Assembly: GCA_023487965.1 (NCBI GenBank)
Contig: JAMDBV010000039.1
Location: 1-10,122 of the forward strand
DNA from: Patescibacteria group bacterium
Lineage (GTDB): Bacteria > Patescibacteriota > Minisyncoccia > Phycocordibacterales > PALSA-1337
Direction of reading: 5' to 3'
DNA length: 10,122 nt
Translations under genes and position numbers: made by a program
The notes under the pieces: model-generated
Seen by the model: the letters and a program-made list of their open reading frames with translations, nothing else
The model's database searches: none
Told to the model about the DNA's origin: nothing
Part shown: positions 262-10,122 of the stretch, in pieces
Position numbering within the stretch: the stretch's first letter is position 1
Layout: each line of letters begins with the position of its first letter

Positions 262-1245
262 TTATGGTACATATTTCTTTACGGCCTTAATGACACCTGA
301 TGCGAGTCTTATTATTACTGAGGTGGCATCGGCATCCGAAGGATCCACTAGTGTAAGACCGTATGTAATTCCATTTTTTCTTATCCGTAGAGCAGAGGTG
401 ACGGTACCGGATTCGGCACAAAGTCCTACAGGACCGCCTGTTTGCTGTACTCTAAGACCGATATCAACACATGTGGAGGTCACAGCCAAATCATTGTAAC
501 AAATATTCATTATCCAATCTTTGTTTGGTTTCTCTTCCGCTGAATTTAGAGTCTTGCTGTCGGTTCTCAGCCACCACACCGAACTTGACTTGTATCCTGA
601 CGGACATGAATAACCCATTGTCATCGGATTAACATAGCTCTTGCCGTTATGTGTACCGGCATATGTTCCATTGGTATCACCTACACTACTACTGTCACTT
701 ACCCCGGATGAATTCTTACAAAAAGTATTTATGTCTGTAATAGACGTGCTTTGCGGGTCACATGTATATACTCCATATATACCGCCAAAATCATTTTGCA
801 GACGCAGGCTATCGTCTACAGCAGATACGTCCTTGGTGCAGGAATGAAAATAATAGACTGGATTCCATGTCGTCGCTGAGGATCCATATGTAGTCGTCGT
901 ATATCCCGCCGGGCAACTGGCAGAACCCGTAATCGGATTCGGATAAACATTGACTTCGGCCCCTCCGTTATCGCTCTTACCGATATACGCACCACCAAAT
1001 TCGTATTCTGTTCCGCCGCTTGCCGATGCGTCACGATAACAATAATACAAATCCGAGGTAAAGCCGATCGATCCATATTTGAACTGTTGGGCCGTGTAGC
1101 CGCTAGGACACGAAGCGGCCAAAGTATATATTCCACCAAAATCATACGCATTGGCCGCATACGTTGATTTTACCGATGCAATTGCCGTAATAATAATTGC
1201 AGTTATAAACAGTATTCCCCTTATTTTGCTTTTATTGCCACTCAT
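262..1245 (-). CDS. Secreted cysteine-rich repeat protein (327 aa), function unknown
   Basis: The N-terminus (KSKIRG, then a hydrophobic stretch at about residues 10-24, then STYA-ANA) is a Sec signal peptide with cleavage near residue 30 or 33. The mature part carries a threefold pattern. A [DE]FGG[IA]Y motif occurs at residues 35-40, 82-87 and 152-157. A CP[SA]GY motif occurs at 46-50, 111-115 and 214-218, and in the last two cases it follows an NP[IM]T segment. There are ten cysteines, an even number that fits extracytoplasmic disulfides. The C-terminal 65 residues are cysteine-poor and begin near ALRIRKNGITYG; from memory, similar tails occur on Patescibacteria surface proteins. I chose ATG 1245, 5 nt after the upstream stop, over a GTG at 1266 that would overlap the upstream gene; a GGTGA lies about 10 nt before this ATG. 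It is probably cotranscribed with the fibre-like gene upstream. I cannot assign a molecular function. Confidence 0.8.
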   Translation of the reverse strand: MSGNKSKIRGILFITAIIITAIASVKSTYAANAYDFGGIYTLAASCPSGYTAQQFKYGSIGFTSDLYYCYRDASASGGTEYEFGGAYIGKSDNGGAEVNVYPNPITGSASCPAGYTTTTYGSSATTWNPVYYFHSCTKDVSAVDDSLRLQNDFGGIYGVYTCDPQSTSITDINTFCKNSSGVSDSSSVGDTNGTYAGTHNGKSYVNPMTMGYSCPSGYKSSSVWWLRTDSKTLNSAEEKPNKDWIMNICYNDLAVTSTCVDIGLRVQQTGGPVGLCAESGTVTSALRIRKNGITYGLTLVDPSDADATSVIIRLASGVIKAVKKYVP

Positions 1246-1250
1246 AAATA

Positions 1251-1679
1251 TTATTTCACCAACCACATCTGCCCAGTCTCTACGGGATTACTACCATCAC
1301 CCGGACACGAACCGCTGGCGCACGTCTGAATAACAAGACCACCAATAGTCTTTGTGACACCGTTCACCAGTAGCGTTCCACCGATCGCTGCACTTCCCTG
1401 CAACAATGTCTTGCCGGCGACTTCAAAATCAGCAACCCTAGTACCAGAAACGCTATCAACTGTCATACTGGTTTCATTTACCCCGAATGGTCCATTCTTT
1501 GTTTGAAGACTTTGTCCAACATTGATCGGTGCATTGCAAGCCGGTTCATTAGCGGGACAATCCGGAGGAGCAAAGGTTGGACTGGTATAATTTGCTAGAG
1601 CAGAAAGAGCGAAAGCACCCAGGGTAAGTCCTGTAATTATTCCGACCGACGATGTAAACTTGGTCAATGTTTTTTTCAT
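1251..1679 (-). CDS. Secreted fibre-like surface protein, copy A (142 aa)
   Basis: Residues 1-29 form a Sec signal peptide (MKKTLTKF, hydrophobic core, ALA-N cleavage). Next comes a short segment with two close cysteines (Cys41, Cys48) and the sequence APINVG. The rest is rich in short beta-strand and Gly/Thr patterns (EVAGKTLLQGSAAIGGTLLVNG), resembling the repetitive shaft of tail-fibre or beta-helix proteins; I recall similar 'APPxCP..APINVG' leaders on Parcubacteria surface proteins. A second cysteine pair (Cys120, Cys125) is near the C-terminus. It is a paralog of the protein at 2122-2847: the first 54 residues are nearly identical and the rest is related but diverged and shorter. There is no Shine-Dalgarno; a TATAAT lies 13 nt before the ATG on this strand. 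It sits 29 nt after its small TM partner gene. A role as an exported surface fibre or adhesin is inferred from signal peptide and composition only. Confidence 0.82.
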   Translation of the reverse strand: MKKTLTKFTSSVGIITGLTLGAFALSALANYTSPTFAPPDCPANEPACNAPINVGQSLQTKNGPFGVNETSMTVDSVSGTRVADFEVAGKTLLQGSAAIGGTLLVNGVTKTIGGLVIQTCASGSCPGDGSNPVETGQMWLVK

Positions 1680-1780
1680 ATTTGTAATGTTAATTATAAT
1701 GTTTTTTATTATTGACTCTGCATGAGCATGTTGGCGACGCTATCCTTCTGCGCTTGCGTTGGTTCTTTGGTCTTGGCGAG
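1576..1780 (-). repeat. 205-bp perfect direct repeat, copy A
   Basis: It is identical base for base to 2744-2948 at a constant offset of 1168. It covers the last 72 bp of small TM gene A, the 29-bp gap and the first 104 bp of fibre-like gene A. On its low-coordinate side similarity continues to about 1516 with three scattered mismatches (for example at 1575); on the high side it breaks abruptly at 1781. Confidence 0.95.
1693..1698 (-). promoter_or_regulatory. Possible -10 element before fibre-like gene A
   Basis: TATAAT lies on the minus strand in the 29-nt gap, 13 nt before ATG 1679; an identical copy is at 2861-2866 before gene B. It would give a leader of about 7 nt. No -35 is visible, and the AT-rich gap could produce this by chance. 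Confidence 0.35.
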
Positions 1781-2014
1781 GAGTGCCGCTACAGCATTGA
1801 TTTGTTCTTCCGACACCTTAACGGGTTCACTTTTCAACATTGACGCCAATCTTTGTTCCTTACTCAATGTCGGAACAGATGTTTCTGGTGTTGTTGCGCT
1901 CATCCTGATCCAAGTGAAGATTGAACCTGCAATGACAATAGCACCAAGCGCACTCACAAGGATAATTGCTTTCTTGTGATCATTGGAAGAACTTGGAACG
2001 ATAAAGTCATACAT
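1709..2014 (-). CDS. Small single-pass membrane protein, copy A (101 aa)
   Basis: After a short N-terminal stretch ending in DHKK there is one strong TM helix (about residues 15-34, AIILVSALGAIVIAG), then a tail of about 65 residues that would face outside if the N-terminus stays in. The tail has three short helical-looking units (EQRLASML, EQINAVAALL, AQKDSVANML), which suggests a small helical repeat. Its last 24 residues are identical to those of the protein at 2877-3191. I chose ATG 2014 over an upstream ATG at 2032 because a TATAAT (2021-2026) would then sit 6 nt before the start, as for other genes here. The gene precedes the secreted fibre-like gene by 29 nt, and the same pairing recurs at 2122-3191, so the products may act together as anchor, chaperone or partner. 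Function unknown. Confidence 0.75.
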   Translation of the reverse strand: MYDFIVPSSSNDHKKAIILVSALGAIVIAGSIFTWIRMSATTPETSVPTLSKEQRLASMLKSEPVKVSEEQINAVAALLAKTKEPTQAQKDSVANMLMQSQ

Positions 2015-2020
2015 GTAGTA

Positions 2021-2046
2021 ATTATACAACAAATATGCACGGTCAA
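2021..2046 (-). promoter_or_regulatory. Promoter of small TM gene A (leaderless)
   Basis: A perfect TATAAT (minus strand, 2021-2026) ends 6 nt before ATG 2014. TTGACC (2041-2046) lies upstream but with a 14-nt spacer, short of the usual 17, so the -35 assignment is weak. The 107-nt gap to gene B (2015-2121) holds no other visible feature. Confidence 0.55.
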
Positions 2047-2121
2047 ATGGATTCTGTGGATAGCAATACCTTATTTAGTTACTCTGCCTAGACAATACTT
2101 CAGATCAAGCGCCCTATCTCG

Positions 2122-2847
2122 TCAATTGTAGATATATATGAGACCACCCGAACCATCAGAGGAAATATTTATCTTAAATGAATCAGGCAGATCGGATATT
2201 TTCGGTGCAGCACATGTAATCCCAATATTGCCTGACCCATTTCGATCCTCTCCAACCATTATAGCGCCTGGTGGACAATACGCCTCATCATCACCGTATT
2301 CCGAACCTCCGACACTGGTTACTTTTAGCATTGTCTTAGGGTATTTGCCTCTAGTGGCCGAGCTGGTCGTATACATCTTTCTTGGCCATGAGTTTATATC
2401 CACTACACTAGTCGATATACTCGATGGACTAGTCCACGTTGCCTTACCGGTTGCGTCGATAGCTGTCAATATTTTACCGGCAGCCGGACTGTTTCCAGAT
2501 ATCGCAAGACCCGTTGTAGTCGCCATACCTCCAACTATCAAATCACCATCTACACCTGCACTGCCTGTGATATGAGTTTTGCCGTTGACTTCGAGAGCTG
2601 CCACAGGATTACCGGACGTATCTGTCAGAGCCGGCGCCAATTCATTGATGCCCAAAAATCCGTTTTTGAACTGGATCATTGACCCAACATTGATCGGTGC
2701 ATTGCAAGCCGGTTCATCAGCGGGACAATCCGGAGGCGCAAAAGTTGGACTGGTATAATTTGCTAGAGCAGAAAGAGCGAAAGCACCCAGGGTAAGTCCT
2801 GTAATTATTCCGACCGACGATGTAAACTTGGTCAATGTTTTTTTCAT
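2122..2847 (-). CDS. Secreted fibre-like surface protein, copy B (241 aa)
   Basis: It has the same Sec signal peptide and Cys41/Cys48 leader as copy A, differing by one residue (Asp for Asn44) in the first 54. The middle part (GINEL, ALEVNGKTHITGSAGVDGDLIVGG) aligns with copy A at protein level. A linker resembling tail-fibre shafts follows (GKILTAIDATGKATWTSPSS). The C-terminal third is unique: SWPRKMY, a Gly/Ser-rich region with Cys191 and Cys212, and a hydrophobic GLIYIYN end; it may be a small globular, disulfide-bonded tip. The stop is TGA. The gene lies 29 nt after the small TM gene at 2877. An exported fibre or adhesin is the best reading, from composition and analogy rather than a recognised catalytic motif. 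Confidence 0.82.
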   Translation of the reverse strand: MKKTLTKFTSSVGIITGLTLGAFALSALANYTSPTFAPPDCPADEPACNAPINVGSMIQFKNGFLGINELAPALTDTSGNPVAALEVNGKTHITGSAGVDGDLIVGGMATTTGLAISGNSPAAGKILTAIDATGKATWTSPSSISTSVVDINSWPRKMYTTSSATRGKYPKTMLKVTSVGGSEYGDDEAYCPPGAIMVGEDRNGSGNIGITCAAPKISDLPDSFKINISSDGSGGLIYIYN

Positions 2848-2948
2848 ATTTGTAATGTTAATTATAATGTTTTTTATTATTGACTCTGCATGAGCATGTT
2901 GGCGACGCTATCCTTCTGCGCTTGCGTTGGTTCTTTGGTCTTGGCGAG
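2744..2948 (-). repeat. 205-bp perfect direct repeat, copy B
   Basis: This is the partner of 1576-1780, spanning the same gene junction: the end of small TM gene B, the gap and the start of fibre-like gene B. Near-identity extends to about 2684. Recombination between the two copies would delete or duplicate 1168 bp and leave both reading frames intact. Confidence 0.95.
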
Positions 2949-3191
2949 AAGAGATGACACCTTCTTGACCTGCTCGGCACTGGCGCTTGAAGGAGCCTCC
3001 AACAATTGTCTTGCTATACCCGACGTCTCACCATTCGAGACCGTATTCGTCAGAATCATTGCGGATTGTCGACTTTGCAAAAAGGCAAATATAAGAGCGA
3101 TGATAATGATTATCGCCAATATACCAGTGAGGACGATCAACTTCGCATGATGCTTATCCACATCTACTTTTTGCGCGGCAAACTGCTCCAT
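2877..3191 (-). CDS. Small single-pass membrane protein, copy B (104 aa)
   Basis: The N-terminal cytoplasmic-like stretch MEQFAAQKVDVDKHHAK precedes one long TM helix (about residues 18-38, rich in Ile/Leu/Ala). A polar tail of about 65 residues ends in the same LLAKTKEPTQ...QSQ sequence as copy A. The N-terminal and mid-tail regions differ completely in sequence from copy A but keep its layout. TACAAT at 3198-3203 lies 6 nt before the ATG, and there is no Shine-Dalgarno. The gene lies 73 nt after the pth stop and 29 nt before fibre-like gene B. The function is unknown; the repeated pairing with a secreted protein suggests a shared surface role. Confidence 0.78.
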   Translation of the reverse strand: MEQFAAQKVDVDKHHAKLIVLTGILAIIIIIALIFAFLQSRQSAMILTNTVSNGETSGIARQLLEAPSSASAEQVKKVSSLLAKTKEPTQAQKDSVANMLMQSQ

Positions 3192-3264: not shown

Positions 3265-3861
3265 CTACCTCCCATTGAATAAACTCATCGCCTTTTCTCT
3301 GCCTTCGTTCAAAATAATTTCTACCGCATCGATAACATTCTTAGAAATTTTCTTAATAATTTTTATTTCGTCCGGTTTGTATTTGCCTAGAATGAATTTG
3401 ACGACCTTATCGTCTCCGTGTGGAACTTTCGCGAGACCTTTTGCATTTTCCGGCGCAATGCCGATGCGAATACGCGTAAAAGCTTCTGTCTTCACAGTCT
3501 TGATAACTGATTCGAGACCGTTATGACCGCCAGAACTACGATTGAATGATATTCTGATTTTACCTAGCGGCAAACTAAAGTCATCGTATACGACCACAAG
3601 CTTCTCGGCTTCTTTTTTGTTCTTGATAAATTTTGCGACTGCTTTTCCGGAATTATTCATGAATGTTTCCGGCAAAACCAAAACGACCGCTCCTTTGCGA
3701 CCGATCTTACCTTTTGCTACTAGAGCATTTGCCTTTTTATCCTCCATGAATGGAGCGTCGATGCTATCGGCAATGCCTTCTACGACAATACGACCGGTAT
3801 TGTGCCGACTATTATCGTATTCTTCTCCCGGATTGCCGAGACCTACTATTGTATATGCCAT
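3265..3861 (-). CDS. pth: Peptidyl-tRNA hydrolase
   Basis: This enzyme cleaves peptidyl-tRNA dropped from ribosomes and recycles the tRNA. All family signatures are present in the 198-residue product: GLGNPG (Asn10), the catalytic His20 in SRHNTG, the FMNNSG loop (residues 67-72), Asp93 in VYDDFSLPLGKIR, and GGHNGL with Asn114. The length is typical of bacterial Pth (about 190-200). An upstream in-frame extension reaching 4080 is rejected, because the family starts at MAYTIVGLG and a TATAAT lies 6 nt before this ATG. It leads the minus-strand block and is divergent from the prepilin gene. The C-terminal half is rich in Lys, as expected for a tRNA-binding surface. Confidence 0.97.
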   Translation of the reverse strand: MAYTIVGLGNPGEEYDNSRHNTGRIVVEGIADSIDAPFMEDKKANALVAKGKIGRKGAVVLVLPETFMNNSGKAVAKFIKNKKEAEKLVVVYDDFSLPLGKIRISFNRSSGGHNGLESVIKTVKTEAFTRIRIGIAPENAKGLAKVPHGDDKVVKFILGKYKPDEIKIIKKISKNVIDAVEIILNEGREKAMSLFNGR

Positions 3862-8598: not shown

Positions 8599-9810
8599 AT
8601 GACCATAATATGGCGCAAAATATCGGTACTTGTATTCATATTTACGGCTTTCATATGGTCGCCTATCTGCCATGCCGATGTTTCGACTACTGATATTCCC
8701 CTAACAATAGACGCTATAACACAGACACAGCCAAACGCCACATCAGACAATACGTACGCCCATGGCTGGAAATGGAATATAGACGTGACAATACCCGATT
8801 CCGAAGCGGCACTGCGTGTCAAATTGTCCGATTGGAACAGTGATAGCGGTTCTATAGATCCTTTTAACAATACCAGGTTTTACTCCGCCGAATCGATCAA
8901 CGCTCCAGATGAGGTTCACGCCATAAGCTCAGCAAAGGATGACTTTGGACAGATTATATTCATCTCCACTTCCACGCTCGATCGTGACCCCAGTACTCCC
9001 GGCATACAGGTCCGCATAGTGGCAGAGATGAAGATCCCTTCCGGCACCAAAGCCGGTTCGTATTCCGGGAATTTTTCTCTGCGTAGCGAACCGATGCCGT
9101 TCATAACTCTAAACGAGCAACCGGTTAGAGATGGTATCAACATCGCTTACGGTGTCGATATTTTTTGGAGGACAGAGTATTTCCGACCTGATGATATCAT
9201 TACCATCGAACTTTGGGATACTCGCAACAAATGCGGTGATTTGAGTGAAGATTGTCAATACGGATGGGATAATGTCGCAACAACGAGCAATAGCGGAAAT
9301 TATCAGTGGCAAGCCGGATTCTCGGAGAAGTCCGGATATTTCGGAACGACTAGCGACAAGGTCTACAAACTGCGGCTTGTCGCGCACGGTTCGAGCACCA
9401 CTGACAGCAACGCCATAGCTGAGACTTGGAGCGATCAATTTGCGATATTGGAACAAGTTCCCAGCATTGATATTTCACACATACCCAATACCTCCCCGAA
9501 ACCGGGAGATGACTTCGTCATATTCGGTCAAGGATTCTTGGCAAATGAAAATTCAATGCGTTTTTTCTGTCCACGGACCGACCCTACGATGGAATACTCG
9601 ATCGATCATCTCGCATCGCCAAACGGACTGTACTTTGAATTCACATTTCCGACGAATCCAAATTATACCGATGGTGACAATGCTACGACGACGCCATGCT
9701 TCCTTACGGTCAACAACGTAAACGGTACAACTACGCCACCGGCACTCATATACCTAACAATCGACTCTTCCGTTTCGAGCACAACCGCAAATAACCTTTA
9801 TCCACAATGA
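8599..9810 (+). CDS. Exported multi-domain beta-sandwich protein (403 aa)
   Basis: A Sec signal peptide ends at CHA-DVS (cleavage near residue 26). Three regions follow. Residues 28-163 form a beta-rich domain (RVKLSDWNS...RFYSAES...VRIVAEMKIPSGTKAGSYSGNFSLRSE) of a type I recall in Patescibacteria surface proteins. Residues 165-286 (DIFWRTEYFRPDDIITIELWD, SGNYQW, YKLRLVA, WSDQFAI) resemble the Kre9/KNH-type Ig-like domain of secreted proteins. Residues 288-387 (PSIDISHIPNTSPKPGDDFVIFGQGF) look like an IPT/TIG Ig-like fold. Cysteine pairs at 212/219 and 324/367 may form disulfides. There is no TM helix or sorting signal at the C-terminus, so the protein may be secreted or held by a partner. 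Its TGA overlaps the next gene's ATG by 4 bp, indicating coupled translation. No catalytic motif was found; a structural or adhesive role is inferred. Confidence 0.85.
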   Translation: MTIIWRKISVLVFIFTAFIWSPICHADVSTTDIPLTIDAITQTQPNATSDNTYAHGWKWNIDVTIPDSEAALRVKLSDWNSDSGSIDPFNNTRFYSAESINAPDEVHAISSAKDDFGQIIFISTSTLDRDPSTPGIQVRIVAEMKIPSGTKAGSYSGNFSLRSEPMPFITLNEQPVRDGINIAYGVDIFWRTEYFRPDDIITIELWDTRNKCGDLSEDCQYGWDNVATTSNSGNYQWQAGFSEKSGYFGTTSDKVYKLRLVAHGSSTTDSNAIAETWSDQFAILEQVPSIDISHIPNTSPKPGDDFVIFGQGFLANENSMRFFCPRTDPTMEYSIDHLASPNGLYFEFTFPTNPNYTDGDNATTTPCFLTVNNVNGTTTPPALIYLTIDSSVSSTTANNLYPQ

Positions 9811-10106
9811 ATATATCCGATTCAAAAGTAAAAGTACCTATTTCGCTACTGATTGTGGCTTTTGCGATCATCACATTCACATTCCCGTATAATGACAATA
9901 TCGTACTGGCTTCTGAAATCAGTGCCAACATGGGCACCACGACCGTGTCGGATCCGGTTACTAACACCGGCAACGGTGGCAACAGCGGCGGATCCGGTGG
10001 CGGAGGCGGAGGTGGCGGAGGTGTAAGTTCTGGCTCGTCCGGAGGAATCGCCAGCATCGCTATAGTTAAAGGAGATGCCAACCGCGATGGAAAAGTCGAT
10101 TGTTAG
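9807..10106 (+). CDS. Exported Gly-rich protein ending in a broken dockerin loop (99 aa)
   Basis: An N-terminal hydrophobic segment (about residues 10-27, ISLLIVAFAIITFTF) with VLA-SE looks like a signal peptide or anchor. It is followed by a Thr/Asn-rich stretch, a glycine/serine linker (about 58-83) and IAIVKGDANRDGKVD, the start of a dockerin type I calcium-binding loop (D-x-N-x-DG). The frame then stops at TAG 10104-10106, two codons after the loop aspartate, so no dockerin helix is encoded. Adding one base near 10098 would open a frame reading DIVRYMSAG to the window end, where dockerins usually continue as '[DN]IVD'. It is either a frameshifted longer gene or a natural short form; the window ends 16 nt later. 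The start overlaps the upstream stop as ATGA. Confidence 0.7.
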   Translation: MNISDSKVKVPISLLIVAFAIITFTFPYNDNIVLASEISANMGTTTVSDPVTNTGNGGNSGGSGGGGGGGGGVSSGSSGGIASIAIVKGDANRDGKVDC

Positions 10107-10122
10107 GTATATGAGTGCCGGT

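Follow-up and report, generated by a model that had tools for sequence, protein, structure and literature searches.

A probable gene conversion tract across the junction of two diverged fibre-like gene pairs in a Patescibacteria bacterium

Gene pairs of the window and their shared core

The window is the whole stretch of DNA that was analysed, a contig of 10,122 nucleotides (C27) from the genome draft G000 (506,721 bases, 61 contigs, 74% complete). Its gene order on the minus strand is the so-called peptidyl-tRNA hydrolase gene, TM-B, fibre B, TM-A, fibre A and a 327-aa protein. The first gene (3265..3861, minus strand), which we take from its sequence to encode a peptidyl-tRNA hydrolase, provides an anchor directly upstream of the two pairs. 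Each pair consists of a small partner with a single membrane span and a fibre-like protein. TM-B (104 aa) is found at 2877..3191 and fibre B (241 aa, long-tip class) at 2122..2847, followed by TM-A (101 aa) at 1709..2014, with a possible alternative TTG start at 2032, and fibre A (142 aa, short-tip class) at 1251..1679, which ends in GQMWLVK; all four are on the minus strand. The 327-aa protein (262..1245, minus strand) is predicted to be secreted, and its relatives are found behind short-class fibres in three other genomes. It carries repeated FGG.Y and CP.GY motifs.

A stretch of 205 bp is exactly identical between 1576..1780 (copy A) and 2744..2948 (copy B), with an offset of 1168. In this core the final 23 codons and the stop codon of the membrane partner are followed by a 29-bp gap and then by the opening 34 codons of the fibre gene. 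A near-identical extension of 60 bp (1516..1575 in A and 2684..2743 in B) continues up to the codons of the motif APINVG. It contains three mismatches, at positions 1550, 1569 and 1575, two of them synonymous and one giving N44D. Beyond core and extension, ungapped identity falls to 0.12-0.60 per 25 bp. Encoded in the constant part are the end of the membrane partner and, on the fibre side, the signal peptide and a linker, while the tips differ. The sequence-only reading had described an exact repeat across a gene junction with diverged coding sequence on both sides, and both descriptions are confirmed. The exactness includes 31 of 31 four-fold degenerate sites in the core and all 29 bases of the noncoding gap.

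The longest identical run, 205, is far from what column permutation gives: when 710 aligned columns, 133 of them mismatched, were shuffled 10,000 times, the longest run averaged 26 and never exceeded 57. Over three 50-bp bins past the start codon, G000 A and B share 40-64% identity with nine copies taken from six further genomes of the family, five of which belong to the genus of G000. Selection alone therefore does not hold the identity of the core, and the shuffle maximum, the identical four-fold sites and the low identity in relatives together indicate that it is recent. A near-identical tract with abrupt edges between otherwise diverged paralogs, as looked for in concerted evolution, is found here. 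A search of the genome for more copies, which the sequence-only reading had proposed, returned the two known copies and no further ones in the 506,721 bases and 61 contigs of the 74% complete draft.

Age of the flanks and of the two fibre classes

Outside core and extension, the two pairs differ as DNA and are still related as proteins. The comparison of TM-A with TM-B outside the core gives a protein score of 67 (shuffles: mean 26, maximum 48, n=2000), and that of tip A with tip B a score of 122 (mean 33, maximum 74, n=2000). Since both scores lie above all 2000 shuffles, both flanks are old homologs. Tip A scores higher against a tip of G037, a genome of another genus, than against the neighbouring tip B (140 and 122), and this single comparison is the one in the window itself that sets class against genome.

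Tips of the short class are recognised by motif in G000, G011, G028 and G037, and by sequence in G030. Relatives of the 327-aa protein are present in 5 of 53 family genomes (G000, G011, G028, G037 and G045), with open frames up to 912 aa. In G000, G011, G028 and G037 a relative follows a short-class fibre in the same orientation, which argues for the short class as an old cassette; the fibre of G045 is left unclassed. A second relative in G037 (C14) lies on a contig with no fibre hit and counts against this pattern. Short and long fibres are both present in G011 and G028, and their cores are not identical. In G000, G007, G011, G024 and G030, 5 of the 32 genus genomes in which the hydrolase gene was found, this gene precedes the fibre on the same strand and leaves space for one small gene between them; in G016 the order of hydrolase and fibre is reversed. 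From the class distribution, the linkage to the 327-aa protein and the hydrolase context, the two fibre classes appear to predate the species of G000, with only the core being young.

In G028 (L079, G028:C14) the two pairs are alike instead at 300-450 bp upstream of the fibre start, with 72-88% identity per 50-bp bin. This stretch corresponds roughly to the N-terminal part of the membrane partner and not to its C-terminal part.

The protein family, its cores and its tips in relatives

A profile of the N-terminal module (A1, 26 rows) matches 37 of 53 family genomes at E 0.01, with two places in G000, and at E 0.001 it finds the module in 147 of the 397 order genomes sampled. A first contig scan with fibre B alone confirmed no relative. 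A small open reading frame with a membrane-span-like stretch lies upstream of 32 of the 40 family copies having enough upstream sequence (one of these 32 calls, G042:C10:14011, is false, being the neighbouring fibre and not a membrane partner) and of 20 of the 74 order copies. Genome sizes in the family are 0.4-1.4 Mb. The source titles of 23 loci name Patescibacteria, Parcubacteria, Taylorbacteria, Nomurabacteria, Vogelbacteria and similar groups, or an unclassified bacterium. The suggestion of an ultra-small organism thus agrees with the genome sizes in the group and with its named relatives, which are Patescibacteria or uncultured bacteria.

The label "fibre" rests on relatives, because fibre B has no family in Pfam, PHROGs or NCBIfam and fibre A has none in Pfam. 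Among 105 proteins scanned against Pfam at E 0.001, ten families are matched, including Peptidase_S74 (6 proteins), a glycine-rich domain (5), collagen (2) and a tail collar domain (1). A PHROG named tail fiber protein matches 12 of the 105, and a collagen-like adhesin model of NCBIfam matches 2. The five window proteins themselves, fibre A included, gave nothing above the Pfam cut-offs, and no Rfam gathering score was reached across the window. Modelling gave a poor structure for fibre B (mean pLDDT 64.9, pTM 0.27), in which the N-terminal helix is the firm part. The signal peptide and APINVG region is the conserved part of the protein family, and the view of a constant N-terminal module with variable C-terminal tips is borne out. 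The fibre proteins are presumably exported and act at the cell surface. Among viral contigs, neither a confirmed relative of the N-terminal module nor an exact hit to a 48-base core word turned up, so a phage origin is unsupported in the viral collection.

Core and tip behave differently across relatives. Among 98 copies in 42 multi-copy genomes, 75 have their nearest core within their own genome, but 40 their nearest tip. The test drew on 31 genomes from outside the family that were hand-picked from the order hits, with part of their copies included. With shuffled genome labels, run for cores only, the mean is 1.4 and the maximum 8, compared with the observed 75. For this test 118 proteins were kept and 7 without the motif dropped; 105 have enough tip and 13 do not.

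Core and tip trees are discordant in an independent genus, g38. Three G080 copies and one G158 copy group together in its core tree (10 rows, support 98/96), whereas in the tip tree (9 rows) G080_C7 goes with G276_C31 (97/88) and G080_C1b with G276_C41 (83/96). Species clades fail the AU test for tips (p 0.000135 and 0.00133), as does a C7+C31 grouping for cores (p 0.019); that pair was chosen after seeing the data. Weak points of these trees are the G276 core group (30/90), two ungrouped G207 copies and one very long-branched tip row; G245 (masked letters) is omitted from both trees and G301 from that of the tips, and no readable copy came from 3 of 14 places. The genus g65 is mixed. There, 11 of 19 copies have their nearest core within their own genome and 7 of 19 their nearest tip, with G107_C3 showing the reverse pattern, one G175 copy omitted for want of the motif and G351_C16 omitted from the tip comparison. 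A tract that follows the genome with flanks that follow the class is seen in part only, for G080 and the tip pairs in g38, and the picture in g65 is mixed. An export end kept uniform by recombination, with outer tips that differ, is the pattern in some relatives.

Recurrence was scored pairwise in 18 multi-copy family genomes (G021 and a third G028 hit were left out for weak second or third matches), requiring at least 84% identity in both first 50-bp bins and flanks near 50%. A pair passes in seven genomes (G000, G013, G017, G027, G029, G038 and G042); none passes in the other 11, which counts against a general pattern. In the order set, cores are 94-98% alike in G249, G297 and G361, with one G249 pair at 90%. 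Rows in which overlapping tandem windows gave trivial 100% matches were not used (G065 C29, two G145 C6 copies, G176, G273 and G422). The same 141 bp stand at four contig ends in G027, and 111-131 bp are exact at four contig ends in G029, each time with two upstream and two downstream flanks. N-terminal cores at or near contig ends are also seen at L083-L084 (G361), L095-L096 (G145), L104-L105 (G297) and L178-L179 (G080). Where identical cores coincide with the ends of contigs, as in some drafts, the number of copies may be underestimated.

The limits of the tract were followed by ungapped walks from the start codon. Rightward, 11 of 15 walks stay in register for at least 29 bases, and the right limits of walks ended by a drop range from 29 to 222. 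On the left, where a contig end cuts none of nine in-register walks, eight of these lose identity no more than 9 bases before the start codon, the exception being G000 at 102. A right limit that differs between genomes fits homologous recombination better than a fixed recombination site, and limits that follow the available similarity argue in the same direction.

Origin of the identical core

We propose, with a probability of about 0.8, that homologous recombination within the chromosome, in its simplest form gene conversion, has recently homogenised the junction of two old paralogous pairs. Two old gene pairs, in each of which a small membrane protein with one span precedes a secreted fibre-like protein, would have existed side by side, and 205-265 bp over the gene junction would have been made identical by a recent event. 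The simplest mechanism would be RecA-type gene conversion between the tandem pairs. RecA has one match in G000 and is present in 32 of 34 genomes of the genus. The dependence on RecA, the direction of conversion and any benefit of tip exchange are inferred. The three mismatches are confined to the 60 bp at one end; an older, longer tract may have been overlain by a newer one, or this placement may be due to chance. Judged from sequence comparison, gene conversion between diverged paralogs is well supported, and the sequence-only reading, which had offered recent gene conversion of a constant core, is upheld on this point by the exact core, the column permutation and the old-homolog flanks.

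The core could instead belong to an active device for tip exchange, in which crossovers between the direct repeats delete, circularise or reinsert the 1168-bp unit and pair tips anew with membrane partners. Direct repeats with different flanks suit this explanation, and the contig ends of G027 and G029 are as expected of identical cores with alternative neighbours; however, static repeats predict the contig-end pattern equally, G000 has two copies only, and headless tips are rare near the copies examined. Such a device is therefore unlikely to explain the core, although active switching for surface variation is possible as a fair extension of gene conversion. The related idea of the core as a recombination hotspot is right in its crossover arithmetic (a deletion of 1168 bp), but the two copies in G000 and the right limits that vary between genomes do not favour it. 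A recent tandem duplication of one pair, followed by replacement of the membrane-partner ends and the tips, would also yield an identical core with different flanks, and G017, G027 and G038 each have one copy with no upstream membrane partner called. Yet the two window copies retain protein homology in both flanks, and tips of the short class are present in other species and a further genus as well; we consider this duplication improbable.

Assemblers can merge small differences inside a repeat, and collapsed variants could make two similar cores look identical, in a draft of 61 contigs with an inverted 34-nt fold-back at the end of this contig. The three mismatches beside the core were nevertheless kept, and the same pattern is found in other genomes, some with both copies on one contig (G042, G249), which makes an assembly effect very improbable. 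Strong selection on the export module alone might keep cores alike with no recombination, and the signal peptide and APINVG region is indeed what the family conserves. This hardly deserves belief given the identity at each of the 31 four-fold sites and throughout the noncoding gap, when other genomes differ at 36-60% of positions.

Under the preferred reading of gene conversion, tip exchange across the core would be a natural consequence of such a homology block. One might go further and see order-wide, modular, secreted host-contact fibres, whose species-uniform export and anchoring module would be a homology block for exchanging phage-tail-type tips between loci and cells. We hold this as a tentative and rather doubtful extension. 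If true, tip exchange would change which partner cells can be bound. In our judgement, the surface proteins by which reduced, often host-attached bacteria recognise their partners are still little known. A paper on type IV secretion in Patescibacteria states that its dataset yielded no adhesins of the PrgB kind and reports type IV pili as needed for adhesion (PMC12102498), and another paper names very large adhesin-domain proteins as candidates (PMC13059738). The present family adds a widespread, secreted-looking protein whose N-terminal end is constant and whose tips are of the tail-fibre type in some members, and it carries a recombination signature.

Several known systems resemble the locus in part. 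Gene conversion from silent cassettes acts in the surface-protein genes pilE/pilS of Neisseria and vlsE of Borrelia. The likeness lies in gene conversion in surface-protein genes, here probable ones; the difference is that the constant end is homogenised here and the tips stay different. Donors lacking a start are the mark of silent cassettes, whereas both copies here are complete, with a start codon and a signal-peptide-like N-terminus. The sapA family of Campylobacter fetus, which encodes S-layer proteins and works by promoter inversion, has a shared 5' part and different 3' parts, and an identical 5' part with different 3' parts is present here too. The PilV shufflon joins a constant N-terminus to an exchangeable tip. 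The repeats here are direct, in contrast to that system, and no shufflon-type inverted pair of at least 20 nt around the tips was found in 1251-3191.

Rhs genes with displaced C-terminal tips are described as having core and tip evolving independently, and homologous recombination is proposed there to pair cores with new tips (PMC2935791). Such decoupling is seen here in the 98-copy test and in g38, and is mixed in g65. Unlike Rhs tips, the fibre genes here are complete with their own start, and no Rhs model is among the ten Pfam families matching the 105 proteins at E 0.001. The 100 fetched regions together with the window contain 116 tip-like places; nine of them were flagged as having no N-terminal module, and five of these nine read as variant modules missed by the pattern. 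No array of headless tips was found in these regions and the window, nor in the rest of G000 searched with fibre B alone. The rarity of headless tips sets the locus apart from silent-cassette systems and Rhs arrays. A variable, predicted surface gene in another candidate-phyla bacterium, a hypervariable repeat gene of Gracilibacteria in which the assembly broke, is similar in kind; it differs in having 9-bp repeats within one gene, synonymous variation and no core/tip arrangement (PMC6851277). Searches of the open-licence PMC literature gave no match for the core/tip pattern.

At the far end of the window, an inverted repeat of 34 nt (9738-9771 and 10089-10122) is 97% complementary, and its second arm is the very end of the contig. 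This arm cuts an open reading frame with the motif GDANRDGKVD, which we take to be dockerin-like. The repeat is probably a fold-back artefact of assembly.
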